Positions 5,303-16,155 of a stretch of DNA of 64,000 nt are shown in pieces. Every line of letters starts with the position of its first letter. Position 1 is the stretch's first letter. Below the pieces are notes generated by a model. It was not told where the DNA came from. It saw only the letters and a list, made by a program, of their open reading frames with translations, and ran no database searches. The stretch is from NCBI GenBank assembly GCA_002720745.1, contig PBJO01000007.1, positions 261,564 to 325,563 on the forward strand, in the 5' to 3' direction. The translations under genes were made by a program, and so were the position numbers. This DNA is from Balneola sp. Its GTDB lineage: Bacteria > Bacteroidota > Rhodothermia > Balneolales > Balneolaceae.

Positions 5303-6111
5303 TGAAATATCCCATTCAACATAGATATCAGAGTTTTAAACAAAAGAGGCTAGCAAAGAAGGAATCAAAGCCTCCAATAAATCGCAAGATTGCGGTTCCA
5401 AGTTTCTTTACTTTAATGAATCTGTTCTCTGGTTTTCTCTCAATCGTGGCTGTGTCAGAGGGAGAGTTGTTTCGTGGTGCTTGGTTTATTGTTGCGGCGG
5501 GTTTTTTTGATGTAATGGATGGATATATTGCTCGATTAGCAAATGCGGGTAGTGATTTTGGGGTAGAACTAGATTCACTGAGTGACATTGTTTCATTCGG
5601 GGTTGCACCATCTTTCCTTATTTATACCTTCGCTTTACATGAATTTCAATTTCTCGGTATACTAATTAGTGCTGTCCCGGCTATGTGTGGAGCTGTCCGC
5701 TTAGCCCGTTTTAATGTTAATACCCGCCTTATCCCCAATCAGAATAATTTTATTGGCTTACCAATTCCGTCACTTGCAATTATATTAGCTGCTTTCTATT
5801 TGAGCTTCCACCAGCAGCTCGAGTTGTTTGATATTTTTCGTAATGGGGTTAGTAGTGTCTTAGGGCCACTAATTATTTTATTGTCAGTGCTCATGTTAAG
5901 TACATTACCCTTCGATAGGATCCCTAAAATGGATCGTACTTCTTTTCAAAAAAATGGGTTTAAATCCTTCCTTTTTTTAGGTTACTTTGTGCTCATTTTA
6001 TTTTTTAGAGAATTAGGACTTATGTCTGTTATACTGATCTACATATTAAAAGGAATTTTGGACGGGCTTAGAGAGTATTTTTCATCAGATCAGCGAGTTA
6101 TGGACCGCTAA
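5302..6111 (+). CDS. pssA: CDP-diacylglycerol-serine O-phosphatidyltransferase
   Basis: An integral membrane enzyme that joins CDP-diacylglycerol and serine to give phosphatidylserine, the substrate of the adjacent Psd. The CDP-alcohol phosphotransferase signature is complete: D70, D73-G74, A77-R78, G87, D91 and D95 in the expected spacing. A basic soluble N-terminus of about 30 residues precedes several membrane helices. The start is a GTG that shares bases with the psd TAG stop (TAGTG). Its last 27 bases overlap, tail to tail, the end of the glycosyltransferase gene on the other strand. No terminator is visible between the converging transcripts. Confidence 0.94.
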   Translation: MKYPIQHRYQSFKQKRLAKKESKPPINRKIAVPSFFTLMNLFSGFLSIVAVSEGELFRGAWFIVAAGFFDVMDGYIARLANAGSDFGVELDSLSDIVSFGVAPSFLIYTFALHEFQFLGILISAVPAMCGAVRLARFNVNTRLIPNQNNFIGLPIPSLAIILAAFYLSFHQQLELFDIFRNGVSSVLGPLIILLSVLMLSTLPFDRIPKMDRTSFQKNGFKSFLFLGYFVLILFFRELGLMSVILIYILKGILDGLREYFSSDQRVMDR

Positions 6112-7155
6112 AGTCATTTCACCGACACTGTCCCAGCTATAATGCGAGGTAATATGGTTTTTCAAGCGGGTGTTTTGAATCCTATGTTCTTCGTTTTCAA
6201 TGTGTAGTAGTTTATTAATAGAAGTCAGTAATGATGAGCTGTCCAGTGGATTAATATAGCTCGCCATCTTTTTAAAGTACTCAATGGTTCCACCATTTTG
6301 GGTAATTACAATAGAGCATCCTGCAAGTGCAGCTTCCATAGCGGCTATCCCAGGAGTTTCAAAAAGTGAGGGCAGTACAAAAACTTTTGCTGCGGCATAA
6401 GCGGAAGCTAATAGAGTCGAATGGTGCTCTTGCGATGGTAAATGAAGTACATTATTACGCTTAATTAATTCTGCGCATTGTTGACTATACTCATCGGTTC
6501 CTAAGTCACCAATAAGTACCAAGGGAGCATCTAGACTCGGTGCAACTTCAAGAAGTCTTATCACATTCTTTCGGGCTGATGATATCTGACCTACAAACAG
6601 AACATAATCAATTAACCCATAACGCTTCTCAAATTCACTACTTTCAGCCTTCAAAAATCGTGTTTCTACTCCATTAGGTATAACATTCATATGACCTAGG
6701 GGTATACCAAATAATTGGTTAATTTGATTCAATTCTGCTCTCGTATTAGGCAAAATTGCATCCGCGATTTGGCATACTTGTTTTTTTATACCGTATTCAG
6801 AATTAATTCCGCTAAAAAAATTACCAAATATCAATTCAATATTTAGTTTGAATTTGGTTATATGCATCCCTTTGGGGGTAAAAAATACCGGAGAAAGGAC
6901 TATAGGTATCTTTTTCTGGTCATTAGAGTGATATCTAGTTTTAAATTGCCGCAAAAATCCCCAATGTTCACTACTCGCCACAAAAACATGTAGAATATCA
7001 ATAGGGGGTAAAACCTCATTGCTATGTATCCAGACAATCTTATGGCCTAAACGTTGGAGAGCTTCAGCGGTTTGCATAACCTGCGTACGAACCCCACCAT
7101 TTACTAATGAGATACTCGATGGTGCTAAAATACCAATGCGTAATACTTGCCTCAT
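6085..7155 (-). CDS. GT4-like glycosyltransferase
   Basis: A 356-residue GT-B fold glycosyltransferase, likely retaining. The N-terminus has the acceptor-domain pattern with a glycine-rich loop (LVNGGVRTQ). The C-terminal nucleotide-sugar domain has VGQISSARKN, LIGDLG and the family E-x7-E motif in SLFETPGIAAMEAA, followed by VITQNGG. Donor and acceptor cannot be read. It is the last gene of the eight-gene minus-strand operon, and its start overlaps the stop of the deacetylase-like gene by four bases. The context of a flippase and a second glycosyltransferase argues for assembly of a lipid-linked surface glycan. Confidence 0.87.
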   Translation of the reverse strand: MRQVLRIGILAPSSISLVNGGVRTQVMQTAEALQRLGHKIVWIHSNEVLPPIDILHVFVASSEHWGFLRQFKTRYHSNDQKKIPIVLSPVFFTPKGMHITKFKLNIELIFGNFFSGINSEYGIKKQVCQIADAILPNTRAELNQINQLFGIPLGHMNVIPNGVETRFLKAESSEFEKRYGLIDYVLFVGQISSARKNVIRLLEVAPSLDAPLVLIGDLGTDEYSQQCAELIKRNNVLHLPSQEHHSTLLASAYAAAKVFVLPSLFETPGIAAMEAALAGCSIVITQNGGTIEYFKKMASYINPLDSSSLLTSINKLLHIENEEHRIQNTRLKNHITSHYSWDSVGEMTLAVHNSLI

Positions 7156-8753
7156 AATCGGATTCTATTTCTGTTCTGTATAATTGTTTCCTTTAAGAGA
7201 CGCCATTTGTTCGAAAAGCGATTTTGTAAAAATTTTTCATCAGCCATGGTTTCGCAGTGTATTTTTCGGAGTGTAAGTGTATTCATAGGAAACACTTTCT
7301 GAGAATCCCAGTCATTGGGTTTTATAATAGCAAAGTCGCGAGTATCTTGCTTCAATTCATAAAATAGGCTTGGCTTTATCTTACTATGTAATTGTCTGCT
7401 TGGTCTATGGTAGTAAATATTGCATTGTTCTGTAGCTCTTTGAGTCCAAAATGCGCACCAATCACTATAGGAAAGCCATTGCAAACCTAATTCTTGAGCA
7501 TACTTCAGGATAAATTCGATACTCGCAAATCCTGGCTGCAATGGATGGTGATAAAGCATTAATGGTTGTTGTAATCCATGTTGAATATCCATGTAGCGTT
7601 TAAAGTATGCGATAAAATGAGATTCCGTGGCCTGATACCGGTGAAGACTTCCTGTACAAATAGGGTGGACTGGTATCTGCAAGCGTTTATTGAATGCATC
7701 ATTGCTATTAGGTAACGATTTAGGTGACCAATACGGTAGTCCATCATAACCATGCGTAAATTCTGAGCTGTAGCTAAAAGGGTAGGTATCCAATACTTTA
7801 GACAGCTGCAAGCTCCAAATACCATATGGAGCCGCATAGCCTTTGGGCGTCATTCCAGCATCTGCCATCGCCTGGTACCCATTTTCAACATCTTGATAGA
7901 GTGGATAGGAAGAGGATATATGCGCATGTTCGTAGCCATGTAAAGCATGTTCGTGATTTGACCATTGCGCAAACCAATCCAGCCAATCTTCGTGAGCTTT
8001 TACATGCAGAAAAGTTGTCAGAATAGCAGAATACTCATTAGCTAGACCATATAGAGTTCGCAAGGATTCTTGTGTCCCAAAATCACTGTCAATACGGAGG
8101 GTGATTATCGGTTTTGCAGTTGGGAAACGCCACTTGGTTAAATAAGGTAAATCTACTGAATAAAATAACTGCTCAAGAGCATAACGAACGAGATGTTGCA
8201 GATGCCCAATATGTGAGCGTGATACCAATTCATTAGGCTGATGACCCGTTGGGCTTGGAAACACTTTGCGAGTATACGAAAATTGATAGAAGGCTGCCTC
8301 AATAGGAATGCCCAAGTAGATGGATTGCTCAAAGGCTTGGCTATTCTTCTTATCTACAAAGCATATTCCATGTATATCTTGTTTTCCACCATAAAAATTA
8401 ACTTTTGCATAGCAATCAATCATGCATAGGTGACTGAGTGGGCCATTCAATAAATCTGGGCTATGTACACTACGACAATAACGGTTTTGTACGGGGATAT
8501 TAGCTGGTTGTATACTAGATTCTGAGGTAAAGAGTACAGCTAACTTATTACCGCTATGCTGTTGGGTTTCCAGCCAATGTTGTTCTTGACGATTTAGAGG
8601 TCTATGCACAATATATATTGAATAGGAATATAGCGCTGATTCTTCGACGATTACCTCTCTATAATTCAACCCAATACTATCCAATAAGGAAACTAAACCT
8701 GGACTAAGCCCAAAAACTCCTACTCCTAGATTATGCAGTATATCCCTCATCAT
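7152..8753 (-). CDS. NodB-like polysaccharide deacetylase superfamily protein
   Basis: A 533-residue cytoplasmic-looking protein, since no signal peptide is visible. From about residue 215 it resembles a carbohydrate esterase 4 (NodB) fold: LRIDSD (D222, D224) in place of the first motif, HGYEHAH (H272, H276, H278) as the metal-binding histidine motif, AAPYG (307-311) in place of RxPxG, and LYHHP (400-404). The first 200 residues are unfamiliar. The arginine of motif 3 is missing, so catalysis is uncertain. It may deacetylate a precursor sugar or be a non-catalytic relative. It sits between the flippase and a glycosyltransferase gene with almost no spacing, so a role in the same glycan pathway is inferred. 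Confidence 0.7.
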   Translation of the reverse strand: MMRDILHNLGVGVFGLSPGLVSLLDSIGLNYREVIVEESALYSYSIYIVHRPLNRQEQHWLETQQHSGNKLAVLFTSESSIQPANIPVQNRYCRSVHSPDLLNGPLSHLCMIDCYAKVNFYGGKQDIHGICFVDKKNSQAFEQSIYLGIPIEAAFYQFSYTRKVFPSPTGHQPNELVSRSHIGHLQHLVRYALEQLFYSVDLPYLTKWRFPTAKPIITLRIDSDFGTQESLRTLYGLANEYSAILTTFLHVKAHEDWLDWFAQWSNHEHALHGYEHAHISSSYPLYQDVENGYQAMADAGMTPKGYAAPYGIWSLQLSKVLDTYPFSYSSEFTHGYDGLPYWSPKSLPNSNDAFNKRLQIPVHPICTGSLHRYQATESHFIAYFKRYMDIQHGLQQPLMLYHHPLQPGFASIEFILKYAQELGLQWLSYSDWCAFWTQRATEQCNIYYHRPSRQLHSKIKPSLFYELKQDTRDFAIIKPNDWDSQKVFPMNTLTLRKIHCETMADEKFLQNRFSNKWRLLKETIIQNRNRIRL

Positions 8754-8759
8754 TGTAGT

Positions 8760-10259
8760 TTATATCTTGGATCTATGCATCAATAACTTTCGGATGGTAT
8801 TCCAATCTGACCTGTTTATAGTCTTTGTCAGTACTAGTGGAATTACTGCCACTGCCATTGTAAAAGTGATCTTAAACCAATGAGGCAATGAGCTTAGGAA
8901 ATTATTTGGCGGATATTTGATGTAGCTCAATAGCACAGGGTCCCCCATTAACCAGAGATAGCATAGAAATCCGATAGCTAAGGCCAGGAACATGGGATAA
9001 AAGCAAAACTTGACCATCGGTAAGGTATACTTATTGAAATAATAGTATGCTAGGTACATTATAATACCTTCACTAAGTACAATGAGTAAGGGGGCATAAG
9101 GGGCATTATTTAATAATACATAACTTCCTGCAATAATAAGTATTGCGCTAAATAGACCACCCAATAGATTAGCTTTTAAATAGTATGTACTTTGCTGTGC
9201 GGCAATTAAGGAGGTCGCAAACACACTATTTTGAAATGTTAAAAACAACACAGGGGAGAGTATTTGAAGCATGGATATACTTTCTGTGTATAGATCCCCA
9301 TAGATCAGGGGAATAATGATAGGTGCTAAAAATAGTACCGCAAAACTCCCTAATAACCCTAGTAAGGTATGGTAGCGATAAGCCTGCTCTAGCCTAGCGC
9401 TTATACTATAAGCTGAGATCTCTTTATCCCAACCATTTGCCAGATTTGGGAGTAATAATTGCACAAATATACGATCTAATACCATGTATAACATGATTAT
9501 ACGTAGGGCAGCCCCGTACCATCCCACAAATGCATCGCTATAGAACAATGCAAATATAAGTGGAGGGAAGAGAAGAATAATTTGACTCCCCACCCAACCA
9601 ATTCCAAGTTGTAAAGATTCTTTTAGAATAGAATATAATCTTTTAATTAAATCTAGGGTCAGGGCGGAGGGTGAAATCACTAAATACCGTTTGTATATAC
9701 TAACGGTACAGAGTAGAAGGGAGGCTAGCCCGACCGAAAGTCCATAATACACAGGTAATTTTTCAAGATCATCTGCGCGTTGAATGCCATATAATATTAG
9801 GGCAAAAAATACGGTCGCCTGAGCCGCTTTAATACTTTGTAAGGTCAGAAATTCCTGCTTCCCTGAAAATATCCACTCAGTATGCAAGGCGTATGGTATT
9901 AAACTAAAAAGTAAAAGCCATACCAGAGTGTTAATATCCTCGGAATAGGGTAAAAATGGTGCGAATAAAAATAAAATGATCATCGCACATAAAGCCCATA
10001 TAAGCTTGCCTAAAAATAGTTCTGCGGTACTATATAAACATCTATGGCCTTCTTTTGCTACCTCTCTGGTTCCTAACTGCATTATGCCAAGATCAGAAAA
10101 CCACAATAAATAACTAAAAATCGCCAAAGCCGTTGTCCAGATCCCATAACTTTCCGGTCCTAGAGCACGAGCAAGCACCATACTGCTTACAAAGCCTAAG
10201 CCCCTAGTTACTAGGTCACCAAAGGCTAAACTCGCTACTTTCTGGCTAATACTACTCAT
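8760..10259 (-). CDS. Wzx-type oligosaccharide flippase (MOP superfamily)
   Basis: A 499-residue polytopic membrane protein with about 12-14 hydrophobic helices. It starts with the typical MOP flippase N-terminus: an amphipathic segment, then GDLVTRGLGFVSSMVLARA and LGPESYGIW. Relatives flip lipid-linked oligosaccharides across the inner membrane for O-antigen, capsule or exopolysaccharide assembly. The start overlaps the end of the upstream glycosyltransferase by eight bases, and the deacetylase-like gene follows after six bases. No Wzy polymerase is recognisable nearby, so the glycan may be a single short repeat or be polymerised elsewhere. Confidence 0.9.
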   Translation of the reverse strand: MSSISQKVASLAFGDLVTRGLGFVSSMVLARALGPESYGIWTTALAIFSYLLWFSDLGIMQLGTREVAKEGHRCLYSTAELFLGKLIWALCAMIILFLFAPFLPYSEDINTLVWLLLFSLIPYALHTEWIFSGKQEFLTLQSIKAAQATVFFALILYGIQRADDLEKLPVYYGLSVGLASLLLCTVSIYKRYLVISPSALTLDLIKRLYSILKESLQLGIGWVGSQIILLFPPLIFALFYSDAFVGWYGAALRIIMLYMVLDRIFVQLLLPNLANGWDKEISAYSISARLEQAYRYHTLLGLLGSFAVLFLAPIIIPLIYGDLYTESISMLQILSPVLFLTFQNSVFATSLIAAQQSTYYLKANLLGGLFSAILIIAGSYVLLNNAPYAPLLIVLSEGIIMYLAYYYFNKYTLPMVKFCFYPMFLALAIGFLCYLWLMGDPVLLSYIKYPPNNFLSSLPHWFKITFTMAVAVIPLVLTKTINRSDWNTIRKLLMHRSKI

Positions 10260-11334
10260 ATCTGGGTTTAGATTGACTATTCCATATTTGATTAATTATC
10301 TGATAAAGTTCGTCTTTATCATTAAATAGTTGCACATCCGTATTATCTTTTTGGCTTAAGAATATACCAATATTAGGTGCAATCACCTTTCTATTGTAGG
10401 ATAATGCCATCATTAGACCTCCCGAAGTATGTATACTTTTATAATTAAAGAGGCAGTAATCCGATGCGGACAGTAGGTATGGGTATTCATCCTCTGGAAA
10501 GAAATAGGGTAGATAACTAAAATATTGTGGGTTCAATGAGATAGCGGTTCTGATACGTTGATGATAACCTACTTGCCCTTTTTTTACGGGCCCCGCTATT
10601 ATAATATGAATAACATCATCCCAATTCTTTCTGTTTAAATACCCTATCATCCAATCGATAAATTCCAATATACCCTTATAAGCGCTTATATTGCCAAATA
10701 GGAGTATAATTGTGGCATTTTCTGGTATGCTGGCAGAGTAGCGTTCATTTAGTGTGCTAATAGAGTGTTTTCGTTCTTTAACTTCTGCGGGAAAGTAGGG
10801 ATGAGGAACTATGCACCATTTATTACTGTGCATAGGCACATTTAAATAGTGTGAGGTATCTCTTAGTAAGACTTTATCATGTATATGCAATTTATGGGCA
10901 TGCTTAGCCATACTTTTATGAAGCCATTTATGAAAGCTAAGCCACTTACCATCATGAGGTTCTAGATTATGAACAGTCCAAATTATAGGATTTTTCATTA
11001 ATGCAAAAATACTAAACCACAATAGTTTATAGGGAAAAGCTAACAATGATTTTAGATTTTGAAATTCAAGCCAATGATAATGTAAGGCTATTTTTTTTCG
11101 GTAACGCAGGGCATAAAAGGGTAATAAAATATGCCTGAAAGCATTTATACTTTTTACGGTATATTGGAAGGGTCGCTTCTCTAATAAATCAGAATATAAA
11201 AGGTAAAGATAGTCAGTCTTGGGAAATTTATTTCTGATTGGAGGAAACACTAGTACCACTGATTCATAATCCAATATCTCCTCATAGCACTGGGTGATAT
11301 TGGTGTAATGCGCTTTAGTGATGCTAGGATTCAT
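10252..11334 (-). CDS. Glycosyltransferase, GT-B fold
   Basis: About 360 residues. The WTVHNLEPHDGKW segment is typical of GT4-related sugar transferases. The C-terminal half has a donor-binding pattern: IILLFGNISAYKG, IIIAGPV, then LLSASDYCLFNYKS and HTSGGLMMALSYNRKVIA. There is no signal peptide. The ATG at 11334 is chosen; a TTG at 11358, eight bases after the preceding stop, would add eight residues (MVLSAVKF) and is a real alternative. It overlaps the flippase start by eight bases. Substrates are not predictable. Together with the second glycosyltransferase it would build a surface glycan. Confidence 0.83.
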   Translation of the reverse strand: MNPSITKAHYTNITQCYEEILDYESVVLVFPPIRNKFPKTDYLYLLYSDLLEKRPFQYTVKSINAFRHILLPFYALRYRKKIALHYHWLEFQNLKSLLAFPYKLLWFSIFALMKNPIIWTVHNLEPHDGKWLSFHKWLHKSMAKHAHKLHIHDKVLLRDTSHYLNVPMHSNKWCIVPHPYFPAEVKERKHSISTLNERYSASIPENATIILLFGNISAYKGILEFIDWMIGYLNRKNWDDVIHIIIAGPVKKGQVGYHQRIRTAISLNPQYFSYLPYFFPEDEYPYLLSASDYCLFNYKSIHTSGGLMMALSYNRKVIAPNIGIFLSQKDNTDVQLFNDKDELYQIINQIWNSQSKPRYE

Positions 11335-11366
11335 AAATTTGACTGCTGATAATACCAAGTCCTCAA

Positions 11367-12368
11367 CTAAAATAAATATTGTAATCCGACCGAGTGTACT
11401 GTGCCAAAACCAGTCTCAAAAGGAATAATAGCATAGTTGAATCGAATATCTGAGAGTATATAGCCTACCCCAAATGAATGAGGTCGCGCGGTATTACCTG
11501 TACGAAACCCCGTGGTGAGTTGTAAGGTTTCTGCTACTAGTACTTCAACACCTACTCTCGCATAAGCTTCGATATTTGTGAAGGTATTTTGTGATAAATT
11601 GGATTCATTATTAAGTGGATAGACGTAGTCCAAATGGGTTCTCACAAACACTGGAAGCTCCGGATTTTTACTTCCATTCCATTCTAATAAACCAATGGAT
11701 AATCCGCTAATCCAAGCCTTTGGTAGAGGGGTTTCCTCCACGTCTAAACGTTGCATTTCACCTAAACTACGTACAGCGGTACCAATATGAATACGATCTT
11801 TGGCGAAAGAACGGGATAGGCCTACATTGAATGCGTAGCCATTAGAGCGATAGGGATATATTTCTTCGCTTAGATAATGCACACTAGCGCCAACATTAAA
11901 CCATCTAAACGATTGTGCATAAGCGGTAGAAATACTTAGGTATTGAACTGAAAATAAGCCATTAGACGGACCTGGCTCATCTCTTTGCTCTAAATCTTGT
12001 AGTCCAGAGCTGTAAAAACTTATGGAAAAGGCTCGTTGCTCTAGTTTTTTATGATAAGAGCCAAAGATATTTTTTGTATCAGCAATCCAATTGGTGTACC
12101 CAATCTCAACCGAAGACCGCTTCGAGTTTACCAATAGCGAGGGATTGGTAAAAGAATTTCCTCCGCCTTGGCCCCAAGCGCTTCCCGCTTCAGAGAGAGA
12201 AAGGGCAAAAGGATTTGGGGCAATGTCGAGTAAGGCAACACCTGAGCGCTGGGCATCTGCACTAGTAAAGTCCACGCTAAGTATGAATAAACAAACCAAA
12301 AATCGATGAGTTCGGCTAAGCAAATGTAAGCAGCTGTGTATTTTTTGTATTTTAATGGCACTATTCAT
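11367..12368 (-). CDS. PorV/PorQ-like outer-membrane barrel protein
   Basis: A 333-residue protein with an N-terminal signal region (RFLVCLFILSVDFTSADAQ). The PorV/PorQ opening follows: GVALLDIAPNPFALSLSEAG, then GGGNSFTNPS, and then alternating amphipathic strands up to the terminal aromatic LQYLF expected of an outer-membrane barrel. PorV proteins are shuttle or attachment partners of T9SS cargo. The ATG at 12368 is used because it lies 10 bases after the preceding gene and directly precedes the signal peptide. Longer in-frame starts would overlap that gene and spoil the signal. It follows a second barrel of the same class and a T9SS cargo gene. Confidence 0.8.
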   Translation of the reverse strand: MNSAIKIQKIHSCLHLLSRTHRFLVCLFILSVDFTSADAQRSGVALLDIAPNPFALSLSEAGSAWGQGGGNSFTNPSLLVNSKRSSVEIGYTNWIADTKNIFGSYHKKLEQRAFSISFYSSGLQDLEQRDEPGPSNGLFSVQYLSISTAYAQSFRWFNVGASVHYLSEEIYPYRSNGYAFNVGLSRSFAKDRIHIGTAVRSLGEMQRLDVEETPLPKAWISGLSIGLLEWNGSKNPELPVFVRTHLDYVYPLNNESNLSQNTFTNIEAYARVGVEVLVAETLQLTTGFRTGNTARPHSFGVGYILSDIRFNYAIIPFETGFGTVHSVGLQYLF

Positions 12369-12378
12369 AGTTAGAATA

Positions 12379-13452
12379 TCATAAAATATATCGAAGGGTA
12401 AAAACATGCATGGATTGAAGAGTATGACGGTTAGTTGAAAAACCATAATCCACCTTCAAAGCGGGTTGAAATGGCAGTGCAAGGCTAAATCCCGCACTCC
12501 ATTTATTGGCATTTTGCTCCGCTAAATATCGATTCCAGCCCATATGTAAACGAAATAATGGGTGTAGTGATCGAGAAGCGGCTAAACGTAGAAAACTAGC
12601 TCGTGTAAAGCGCGTTTCTAACTCTTCAATGTATGAAACAGGTGTTCCATTTGATATAAAGAGCTCCCTTGTGGTAACCTCCGCGCTAAATCGCTTTATC
12701 TCAAACTCAGCGAATACCTGCGTACCTATCACAAGAGTAGCTAAACTTGTTTTGAGCCTTAGGGGCATTGCTTCGACTCGGTTTCTTGACTGTGGTTGAT
12801 TGTATAACTCACCTGAGTTCCATGTGTGCTCAGCTAAAAGATCTTGCATTACAAATGACCAATGGGTGTTAGGATTAAGTTTTATCTGTATGCCAAGATC
12901 CATCCCCACGCTTGTAGATGGTTTCATATCGCTGTGATAATCGGCTCTGTTTATCTTAAAACCAATTCCTGCTTGGATATTTTCACTGAGCCGAATACCA
13001 AAAGCTGATTGAAGTTGAATATCTGAGGTAGATACCATACCTAAGGGATAACCACTTAAACTTCGGGTATCGATATCTTGAACTCCAGCCCGAATTAACC
13101 CAATAAATAAACCGGCTTTGGGTGGTAGAGCAACACGTGCGCCAACACTCTGATAATGCCGGTCTAAACCTAATTGAAAAACACTAAGACTTAGATGGGT
13201 TTGAGCGGTATAGTTTGCTGCTAGGGCAGGATTATAATAAGGTTGTACTTCCAGTGAAGTACTATCTACCCGTTCTTCTCGGCTAAACCCAGCACTCACC
13301 GCATCACCAAGAGCTACACTCTGCGCATCAAACCCTAATTGTAGCGTAGATCCAGCATATCCACCAAATTGAGCGTTGATTAGAGCATAGGGCATCCCAC
13401 CAACCAATAAGGCTGTGATCAAAGTAAGGACAATACGAGATAAAATAGGCAT
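12379..13452 (-). CDS. PorV/PorQ-like outer-membrane barrel protein
   Basis: 357 residues with a signal peptide (LTLITALLVGGMPYALINAQ). The mature N-terminus has the PorV-like pattern GSTLQLGFDAQSVALGDAV followed by YYNPAL, where the asparagine-proline pair is typical of this barrel group. The rest is beta-rich with aromatic strand ends, closing in VFTLRYIL. It overlaps the T9SS cargo gene by one base (ATG inside the preceding stop). Sequence and position suggest a partner of that cargo in the outer membrane. Whether it is a true PorV, a PorQ, or a more general UPF0164-type barrel cannot be settled by eye. Confidence 0.77.
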   Translation of the reverse strand: MPILSRIVLTLITALLVGGMPYALINAQFGGYAGSTLQLGFDAQSVALGDAVSAGFSREERVDSTSLEVQPYYNPALAANYTAQTHLSLSVFQLGLDRHYQSVGARVALPPKAGLFIGLIRAGVQDIDTRSLSGYPLGMVSTSDIQLQSAFGIRLSENIQAGIGFKINRADYHSDMKPSTSVGMDLGIQIKLNPNTHWSFVMQDLLAEHTWNSGELYNQPQSRNRVEAMPLRLKTSLATLVIGTQVFAEFEIKRFSAEVTTRELFISNGTPVSYIEELETRFTRASFLRLAASRSLHPLFRLHMGWNRYLAEQNANKWSAGFSLALPFQPALKVDYGFSTNRHTLQSMHVFTLRYIL

Positions 13453-15056
13453 TAATCGATGACTAATATTTTTCCATTGAATTTTGATTCGCCTTGAGTT
13501 ATTTCATAGAAATAAACCCCATTACTTACTTTTGAACCCATATCATTAAAGCCTGTCCAGATAATCTCATATTCTCCAGGGACAACTTGCTGCTGCTGTT
13601 CAAGGACTAAATTCATGCCAAAATCAACAATCCGTAAGGTTGCCGCATTGGTAGATCTACTCTCAAATCGTATTCTAACTTCCCCGTGTAGATTGGGTGA
13701 AAACGGATTAGGATAGGCATAGGTCGACACAGTTTCAGCTTCCGGTTTAAATTGGTTGCCTCCATCTAAGGGGAAATTTACCCGTTCGATATTCCAGCCA
13801 TTATCTGGATCCCTGCTCCATAATAATCCATCTGAAGTTCCAATGAATAAATAGTCCGAGGTACTGCTAATACTTTGATATGATGTCTTGGGCTTCAAAC
13901 GATTATTTACTGACATAGGTACAGAGATCATTTCCCAGCTTGTTCCCTCATCTTTGGATCGGAATAAACCATTTTCACCTGCAGCCCACACATCACCCTG
14001 GAAGAAACCAATAGAGAGTATTTTTTGACCTTGTAGGCGTTGTTCAAAACTCGAACCACCATCGTCTGTAAAGACTATACCATATTGATCTAATCCCTGT
14101 AGATTAGACGTACTATTTTCCGCAATCCAGTTGGTAAGCCAAATACGATCTCCATTTGGATCCTCTGCAATTTCTATAACCCATCGTGCCAACAGACCAT
14201 TAGGATCATAATTAAAACCCACATTATTCCACCGGATTGAGTCAATAGGTGCGTATAGTGCATTATCAGATACATTGATGCCACCAGCGCTTCCATACCA
14301 AACACGATTATTGCGATCAATATGTACTGCAAATCCCTTAAGGTTGTCATCACTTACAGCGGTATATAATTCTTCAGATTGGGCACAAGTATTTGCCGAC
14401 CCAGCTGCACAATTACGCCAAACATAGCGGCCCCCGTCTGCTCGCATTGATGAAACTCCAAAGGGGGGAAGTGCAATTCGTTCCCATTGGCGCCCAAAAT
14501 CTGTACTGCGAAGTAATCCAGAAGCCCAATTTGCTGAAAATATCACTGTGTCCTTAATTGCTACACTGTATGGTGGGGATTGTTCTGGAACAATAATTCG
14601 TGCTCGATCATACTCAATACCCCCATAAACAAAGGTGGTATCTTCATCTATGTAACGGTCTAAAGGAAAGGGTGAAAAAGACCAGCTTTGTCCATTATTT
14701 GAACTGATATAATACCCATATCCAGCAGGAACCGTACCAGCCGGAGTCGATGAACTAAATCCTAATCCTGCGACAATAGTGTTACCTTGAGTAGCGATGG
14801 AGAATACGCGACCTTTACCACTAGTTAAACTGTCTATACCATCAGGGATAGCCCAGATTACGTCGGGACGATCAATGGGAGCATAATTTAAAAGAGGGGA
14901 GACCCAAATAAATCCATTACTTGTTTCAACAGTTGAGATACCATTCTGCCGAAATCTTTCAAAATCAGAATTCATTGGTCCTAACCATTGAGATTGAACT
15001 CCGTTTGGAAACGATAGTATCACTATTAATACCGAAATATATAGGTATTTAGGCAT
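13452..15056 (-). CDS. T9SS-sorted secreted beta-propeller (BNR-like) protein
   Basis: 534 residues with a signal peptide ending near AQSQW. The body has repeated Asp-box-like turns (ISSNNGQSWSF, RSTDFGRQWERI, FTDDGGSSFEQ, RSKDEGTSWEMI), the hallmark of a BNR/sialidase-type propeller. From about residue 448 to the end is a T9SS type A C-terminal sorting domain: YPNPFSPN, a strand region, then VSNGVYFYEI and the terminal GKILVID. Such domains direct export through the type IX system and are often exchanged for a glycolipid anchor. No catalytic residues are evident. It lies one base after the Ig-like protein gene and overlaps the first PorV-like gene. Confidence 0.85.
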   Translation of the reverse strand: MPKYLYISVLIVILSFPNGVQSQWLGPMNSDFERFRQNGISTVETSNGFIWVSPLLNYAPIDRPDVIWAIPDGIDSLTSGKGRVFSIATQGNTIVAGLGFSSSTPAGTVPAGYGYYISSNNGQSWSFSPFPLDRYIDEDTTFVYGGIEYDRARIIVPEQSPPYSVAIKDTVIFSANWASGLLRSTDFGRQWERIALPPFGVSSMRADGGRYVWRNCAAGSANTCAQSEELYTAVSDDNLKGFAVHIDRNNRVWYGSAGGINVSDNALYAPIDSIRWNNVGFNYDPNGLLARWVIEIAEDPNGDRIWLTNWIAENSTSNLQGLDQYGIVFTDDGGSSFEQRLQGQKILSIGFFQGDVWAAGENGLFRSKDEGTSWEMISVPMSVNNRLKPKTSYQSISSTSDYLFIGTSDGLLWSRDPDNGWNIERVNFPLDGGNQFKPEAETVSTYAYPNPFSPNLHGEVRIRFESRSTNAATLRIVDFGMNLVLEQQQQVVPGEYEIIWTGFNDMGSKVSNGVYFYEITQGESKFNGKILVID

Positions 15057-15057
15057 A

Positions 15058-15867
15058 CTATGGGTTGATGATATTAAATGTTGATTTCAGGGTATCACTA
15101 AATAGTCCCGCTTTATCCTTTGCATAGTAAAGTACGGTTCTGTTTTGTGGTGTGTTTGAACTGTTAACAGAAAATGTGATGGTATATACCGAATCACCCG
15201 CTACTTCGTCTAAACCTGTTCCTGAATCGGTTAGAACATTCGGTGTAGGAGTGAGTATGCTGCCATCTTCATCTTCAAACGCGATGAAAACTCTATCGAG
15301 TGTTTCTTGTCCATCTGGGTCGGTCACCTTAGCTTGGAATGGAATATTCAGCGTAGTAGACCCTGTAGGAATTTCAACAGAATTAGGATTCTCCACCCAA
15401 ATGATTTTGGGTGGAGAGCTAGCAATACCCTCTATTGACAATATGGCTTGATGTTGTATCCTATATCCATATCTGTCCAATGCATATAATTCAAGCAGTA
15501 ATCGCTCATATGAAGTCGTAGTTGTTTCCCAACTAAAATTGCCTTGAATTTCAATCGGTAAGGTGTCAATTATAAGTTTTTCCAAACTTTCCTGTAATAA
15601 AATCTCACTAGTTCTTGGATTTCTGACTATGTAACCTAAATGCTCTAAAAACTCAGAATTATGTAGTAGGGCAAAAAATGTATAGTGCAGCGTAGTATCC
15701 TTAAATCCATCTAAGTCCACATCAAAACTAATATCTGTTGGCTCCACACGAAAATGACTCAGATCAACAAATGTATAGGATTGCGTGGGTGTATAAGGTA
15801 TGTTATCGCAGTGGATGCCACCTAGAATGGCCAGAATAAGTGTAGACAAAAGAGCTTTATGGAACAT
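15058..15867 (-). CDS. Secreted or lipid-anchored Ig-like domain protein
   Basis: 269 residues. The N-terminus (LLSTLILAILGGIHC) ends in a cysteine that may be lipidated, though GIHC is a weak lipobox. The C-terminal half resembles an Ig-like or cadherin-like domain with a calcium-type signature (VTDPDGQETLDRVFIAFED, then LDEVAGDSVYTITFSV). The central portion is unfamiliar. It is the first gene of the eight-gene operon and lies one base upstream of the T9SS cargo gene. A surface or periplasmic partner of that cargo is a reasonable guess, not a demonstrated function. Confidence 0.65.
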   Translation of the reverse strand: MFHKALLSTLILAILGGIHCDNIPYTPTQSYTFVDLSHFRVEPTDISFDVDLDGFKDTTLHYTFFALLHNSEFLEHLGYIVRNPRTSEILLQESLEKLIIDTLPIEIQGNFSWETTTTSYERLLLELYALDRYGYRIQHQAILSIEGIASSPPKIIWVENPNSVEIPTGSTTLNIPFQAKVTDPDGQETLDRVFIAFEDEDGSILTPTPNVLTDSGTGLDEVAGDSVYTITFSVNSSNTPQNRTVLYYAKDKAGLFSDTLKSTFNIINP

Positions 15868-16060: not shown

Positions 16061-16155
16061 CTTGACATGTTCAAGTCTCTAAAGATTGAAAATCTTAATT
16101 GTTCGGCTGTTACTAGTGTTTACCCACTTTTTTGCCAAAAAGTGGGTTTTTTTTT
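16061..16155 (+). terminator. trp leader: two small hairpins and an intrinsic terminator (attenuator candidate)
   Basis: Three inverted repeats follow one another: CTTGA/TCAAG at 16061-16075, AAGATT/AATCTT at 16082-16096, and a 10-bp stem CCCACTTTTT/AAAAAGTGGG at 16123-16146 with a four-base loop and a nine-T tail to 16155. The last is a textbook intrinsic terminator in plus orientation. The flanking genes diverge, so there is no upstream gene for it to end. It lies 58 bases before trpE, so it most plausibly controls readthrough into the trp operon. No Trp codon (TGG) occurs in the leader before it. Confidence 0.75.

Follow-up and report, generated by a model that had tools for sequence, protein, structure and literature searches.

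Within a 64,000-nucleotide window of the genome of a marine member of the Balneolaceae (2.17 Mb, 98.6% complete), the operon read from position 15867 down to 6085 consists of two blocks, H-G-F-E followed by D-C-B-A, and three of its genes, H, B and A, track the T9SS sortase PorU within the family, which supports the earlier suggestion that T9SS-type surface proteins are coupled here to glycan enzymes. We propose that H-G-F-E may constitute a second PorZ/PorQ-like T9SS attachment subcomplex, coupled through the operon to enzymes that would build or modify the glycan it handles, a reading to which we give about an even chance. It is founded on gene order, folds, conservation, the joint loss of H, B and A with PorU, and the recurrence of glycan genes as neighbours.

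All eight reading frames of the preliminary description were found at their coordinates on the minus strand and are lettered from H to A in order of transcription. The first, H (15058-15867), is a predicted lipoprotein with Ig-like domains, and it is followed by G (13452-15056), a PorZ-like protein with one beta-propeller and a T9SS-like C-terminal domain, F (12379-13452), an outer-membrane barrel of FadL/PorV fold, E (11367-12446), a second barrel of PorV/PorQ type with an alternative start at ATG 12368, D (10252-11358), a putative divergent glycosyltransferase starting at TTG 11358 or ATG 11334, C (8760-10259), a Wzx/MOP-type flippase, B (7152-8753), a NodB-like polysaccharide deacetylase, and A (6085-7155), a GT4 glycosyltransferase and the last gene of the operon. 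The measured junctions agree with the tight spacing reported earlier (overlaps, or gaps of at most 10 or, for one start, 32 bases), being +1 for H-G, -1 for G-F, -68 for F-E or +10 with the E start at ATG 12368, +8 or +32 for E-D depending on the TTG or ATG start of D, -8 for D-C, +6 for C-B and -4 for B-A. A divergent gap of 346 bp separates the head of the operon from trpE, and at its end gene A shares 27 bp (window 6085-6111) with a pssA-like gene in a tail-to-tail overlap; given this flanking gap and tail overlap, it is plausible that H to A form one transcript. A promoter scan of the locus returned fewer sites than were found in shuffled sequences. On the plus strand, about 70 bp before trpE, a strong terminator-like hairpin with a T run (window 16122-16147, no Rfam match) could possibly be an attenuator of the trp genes or the terminator of a short leader.

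The AF2 model of G (534 aa, pLDDT 87) has a propeller followed by a beta-sandwich tail, and the length leaves room for one propeller and that tail. A Foldseek search of the PDB gave PorZ as the best match (5m11, E 2.4e-15, probability 1.00), with two-propeller sensors such as BT4663 close behind; the TM-scores of the matches were low, as is expected when one propeller is superposed on two. Residues 435-532, the tail, score 38.7 bits on the NCBIfam PorZ equivalog NF052228, the match covering the C-terminal part only and lying far below the cut-off of 260, and the single propeller departs from the PorZ architecture of two seven-bladed propellers and a CTD. The T9SS sorting domain originally assigned to G stands in so far as the tail is T9SS-like, but the tail scores below the cut-off of both cargo models (18.9 bits against 27 for Por_Secre_tail, 18.8 against 23 for TIGR04183) and higher on PorZ, and a FlgD-Ig model scores it about as well as the cargo-tail models do. 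G is PorZ-like, yet no PorZ by the equivalog test; it occurs class-wide and is nearly always single-copy.

The barrel type proposed for the two genes downstream of G is upheld by profile and fold, although both remain under the 90-bit cut-off of the PorV/PorQ family model NF033709 (PorV_fam), on which E scores 82.3 bits (64.3 bits on PorQ) and F 60.8 bits. Both match the solved PorV 6h3i_F in profile comparisons, with E-values of 7.8e-16 for gene E and 3.9e-6 for gene F. The AF2 model of F (pLDDT 85) matched FadL and PorV (PorV 8gl6_F, TMq 0.60), so that a FadL-like barrel fold is indicated by a model for F and by profile only for E. As for H, the preliminary description as an Ig-like envelope protein can be corrected to a predicted lipoprotein with Ig-like domains, since it has a signal region and Cys20, one of four columns that are invariant in 24 homologues from across the class, the next residue in these being mostly Asp. 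The copy in the window has G-I-H before Cys20, a poor lipobox, and a profile search of the PDB with H yielded antibody-fold matches only, which carry no meaning. Two variants of this part of the operon were seen: at L142 and L143 the length of H is down to about 160-168 aa, in a family (f12) in which PorU shows up only as weak matches of about 1e-50, and at L169:12250-17287 (genome G118) the H-G pair is tandemly duplicated upstream of F-E-D-C-B-A.

The canonical attachment complex is encoded elsewhere in the genome. PorU, as well as a polymerase and a ligase, had been said to be missing from the operon, and this is borne out; PorU is found on another contig, where it adjoins PorV (290 bits on the equivalog model). 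A canonical PorQ (234.5 bits, above cut-off), SprA, a barrel resembling PorV2 (242 bits, below the cut-off of 325) and about 35 cargo tails above cut-off are also present, and the idea that G is the PorZ of this genome was rejected, as a separate full PorZ scores 421 bits. The operon therefore adds a second set to the standard one. Behind the canonical porZ, a same-strand run comprises a GT2, a GT2/PGT-like fusion, a WcaJ-like polyprenyl glycosylphosphotransferase and another GT2 (G000:C7, L209:1842-10468); the run was followed to completion in this genome and over 1.5 kb in each of ten other Balneolaceae loci, and in all ten porZ is directly followed by a GT2-containing gene, the fusion gene standing directly behind porZ with or without the first GT2. 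Hence a glycan run lies behind each of the two PorZ-type genes, and the one behind porZ includes the WcaJ-like initiating enzyme that the window operon lacks.

The assignments of the glycan genes themselves differ in strength. C matches PF01943 (Polysacc_synt) at 86.1 bits, above the cut-off of 28.2, and A matches PF00534 at 63.5 bits. B reaches 16.7 bits in Pfam, below the cut-off of 23.1, and its profile (A2) matches solved polysaccharide deacetylases down to E 1.9e-8; D222, D224, H272, H276 and H403 are invariant among 15 homologues, and B has a D-S-D motif (D222-x-D224) in contrast to the usual adjacent Asp pair of NodB deacetylases. D is assigned as a glycosyltransferase only because NCBIfam matches it weakly to IagA/BgsA (20.1 bits); it has no Pfam match, and its orthologues were seen only in loci of the Balneolaceae. 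At one locus from another class (L203), E is followed by homologues of B and A (29% and 39% identity), ordered as here and with a further glycosyltransferase between them.

The link between the operon and the sortase emerged from the distribution of its genes among 74 Balneolaceae genomes. PorU and B occur together in 32 of these, PorU occurs without B in none, B without PorU in one, and 41 have neither, that is, B is present in 32/32 PorU-positive and 1/42 PorU-negative genomes (Fisher p 3.7e-20, a value that ignores relatedness). The one genome that departs from this, the MAG G001, is 93% complete and has 45 cargo tails, and PorU may therefore sit in a gap of the assembly. Counted by locus, with three short-contig rows left out and G002 (partial PorU at a contig edge) taken as positive, H, B and A are present in 29/29 PorU-positive loci and absent from all PorU-negative G-bearing loci but that of G001 (22/23); E and F are retained in 22/23 of the latter. 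C mostly follows PorU, D does so only partly and E and F hardly at all, and D, in some loci also C, persists in the absence of H, B and A. H is physically gone from the H-less loci, the gap between trpE and G shrinking from about 1166 bp to 220-694 bp. The changes in PorU, H, B and A fall on separate lineages of a tree built from G, F and E: three to four independent pairs differ in PorU, H, B and A change in the same direction in three and never in the opposite one, and E and F change along with PorU in almost none. Three pairs are too few for formal significance (sign test p 0.25); G028 and G166, which have small genomes, were left out of the counts, as they join the long-branch G034 in the full tree, likely an artefact.

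PorZ above cut-off is also missing from the same PorU-negative genomes, in a smaller sample, and SprA scores above cut-off in 57/58 relatives. Loss of the whole T9SS in the PorU-negative genomes was considered and rejected in view of this retention of SprA. A search for GldM (TIGR03517) failed in nearly all genomes, including PorU-positive ones, and is therefore uninformative as to retention of the T9SS motor. A number of near-complete genomes (G011, G013, G018, G019, G021, G026, G031 and others) keep SprA and have neither PorU nor PorZ, with mostly 5-13 cargo tails (32 in G026), and thus represent a T9SS without sortase.

Beyond the family, conservation is greatest for the first block. Group names above Balneolaceae are inferred here from the taxonomy, and the family codes are those of the genome search, f1 being the family of the window. 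Homologues of G were found in most of 58 relatives, in 178/196 genomes of the class and in 13 further families of the phylum, in the last with matches that span most of the protein at E-values of 1e-68 to 1e-110. Balneolales genomes have the genes in the order H-G-F-E; so do the other families of the class, where E was not found in every case, and most of 18 loci outside the class, two families having F-H-G variants; in the Balneolales families f3 and f5, as in the window, the block lies between trp genes and pss/psd/rseP. The genes behind E are more variable. D-C-B-A follow as a set in the Balneolaceae only; in Balneolales f4 a GT4 gene lies 9-61 bp behind E (four loci scanned), with no detectable relatedness between this glycosyltransferase and the Balneolaceae D at the equal position; and in 10/14 loci of other classes with E the next gene on the same strand encodes a glycosyltransferase, a GNAT/FemAB-like transferase or a PMT-type enzyme. 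H-G-F(-E) also occurs in the other order of the class, with no identifiable glycan genes behind it. Separation of the glycan genes from the T9SS genes in most relatives was what the preliminary description took as the finding that would speak against it. D-C-B-A do lie apart both in the remaining Balneolales families and in the other order of the class, but some glycan gene trails E in the Balneolaceae, in f4 and in most loci of other classes. The presence of other glycan genes at this position in other families, together with the glycan run headed by the canonical porZ, also speaks for the coupling.

PorZ of P. gingivalis, which is anchored by PorQ, binds A-LPS and brings it to PorU; PorU, seated on PorV, attaches the A-LPS to cargo (PMC8545088, PMC5562754). 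By analogy, G would cross the outer membrane by means of its C-terminal domain, probably through the SprA translocon, stay uncleaved like PorZ, and be held at the surface by one or both of the barrels E and F, much as PorZ is by PorQ, with the lipoprotein H as an accessory subunit that would be needed while the sortase is in use. The propeller of G would bind a surface glycan and present it to the PorU attachment complex, and the enzymes of the D-C-B-A block and of the glycan run behind porZ would jointly build, flip and deacetylate this glycan in undecaprenyl-linked form. The surface location, the binding of a glycan, its hand-over to PorU and the nature of the glycan are what we infer, and the disappearance of H, B and A with PorU fits such a glycan-presenting model. 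Like the PorZ-PorQ half of the P. gingivalis complex (PMC8545088, PMC5562754), the operon combines a propeller protein with a T9SS-type C-terminal domain, genes for PorV/PorQ-type barrel partners, and ties to both the sortase and glycan genes; it differs in that G has one propeller instead of two, that two barrels and a lipoprotein share the operon with glycan enzymes, and that H-G-F-E is additional to canonical PorZ and PorQ and keeps its core upon loss of PorU. The porR/porS/wzy/gtf cluster for A-LPS (PMC7323717) likewise has a flippase along with glycosyltransferases that serve a T9SS anchor glycan, but the part of that source covering the cluster names no propeller or barrel gene, and the window operon has a NodB-like enzyme and lacks a polymerase. 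B resembles NodB-type deacetylases (PDB 7y51, 3qbu) in sequence, in the conserved His pair and in the late His, and differs from them by D-S-D and by an N-terminal region of about 200 residues.

The weakest point of the subcomplex model is the retention of G-F-E in PorU-negative genomes. With SprA also remaining there, the core G-F-E would have a role beyond attachment or persist as a sortase-less surface complex. A second set is, by analogy, not needed where canonical PorZ, PorQ, PorV and PorU are all present, and the single propeller and failed equivalog of G, the D-S-D motif of B, the glycan-free H-G-F(-E) of the other class order and the small number (three) of independent co-loss events also count against the model. 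The same retention favours a different, in our view rather unlikely explanation, in which H-G-F-E would serve lineages other than Bacteroidia as a general module for assembly of, or transport at, the outer membrane, acting outside the T9SS, for example on a surface polysaccharide or lipid via the FadL-like barrels, with a structural, FlgD-Ig-like tail on G and glycan genes that serve the polysaccharide. The likeness of F to FadL as much as to PorV, the FlgD-Ig score of the G tail and the lack of glycan genes behind the module in the other class order agree with it, but H, B and A depart with PorU, the tail of G is most like PorZ, and the PorU-negative genomes retain SprA, which leaves G an export route.

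Still less probable, we believe, is the absence of any functional link, the glycan genes having gathered by chance and been lost with PorU as lineages shed whole surface functions. The small number of independent differing comparisons would permit this, and lineages may differ in lifestyle; however, the loss is selective, sparing D and in some loci C, and in other families this spot is repeatedly taken by unrelated glycan enzymes. Least probable of all is the model of the preliminary description, that G is a T9SS cargo for which the operon makes a dedicated glycan anchor, for although its tail is T9SS-like, glycan genes share its operon and H, B and A are lost together with PorU, G is retained in 22 PorU-less genomes that lost these three genes, it fails the cargo models and is closest to PorZ in fold and tail, and some 35 other proteins with proper cargo domains would share the same anchor.

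We found no description of such an operon in the open-access literature, the coverage of which is incomplete. More speculatively than for the subcomplex itself, and as a possibility that we consider somewhat doubtful, H-G-F-E outside the best-studied Bacteroidia could be an ancestral second glycan-presenting complex whose operon gains lineage-specific enzymes and encodes a variable cargo anchor sugar, in which case each lineage's anchor chemistry could be predicted from the genes that follow E. If our reading of the operon is correct, it would supply candidate genes for making and presenting the T9SS anchor glycan, a conserved landmark by which anchor genes may be located across many genomes of uncultured organisms, and a division of labour between two PorZ-type proteins that can be put to the test.
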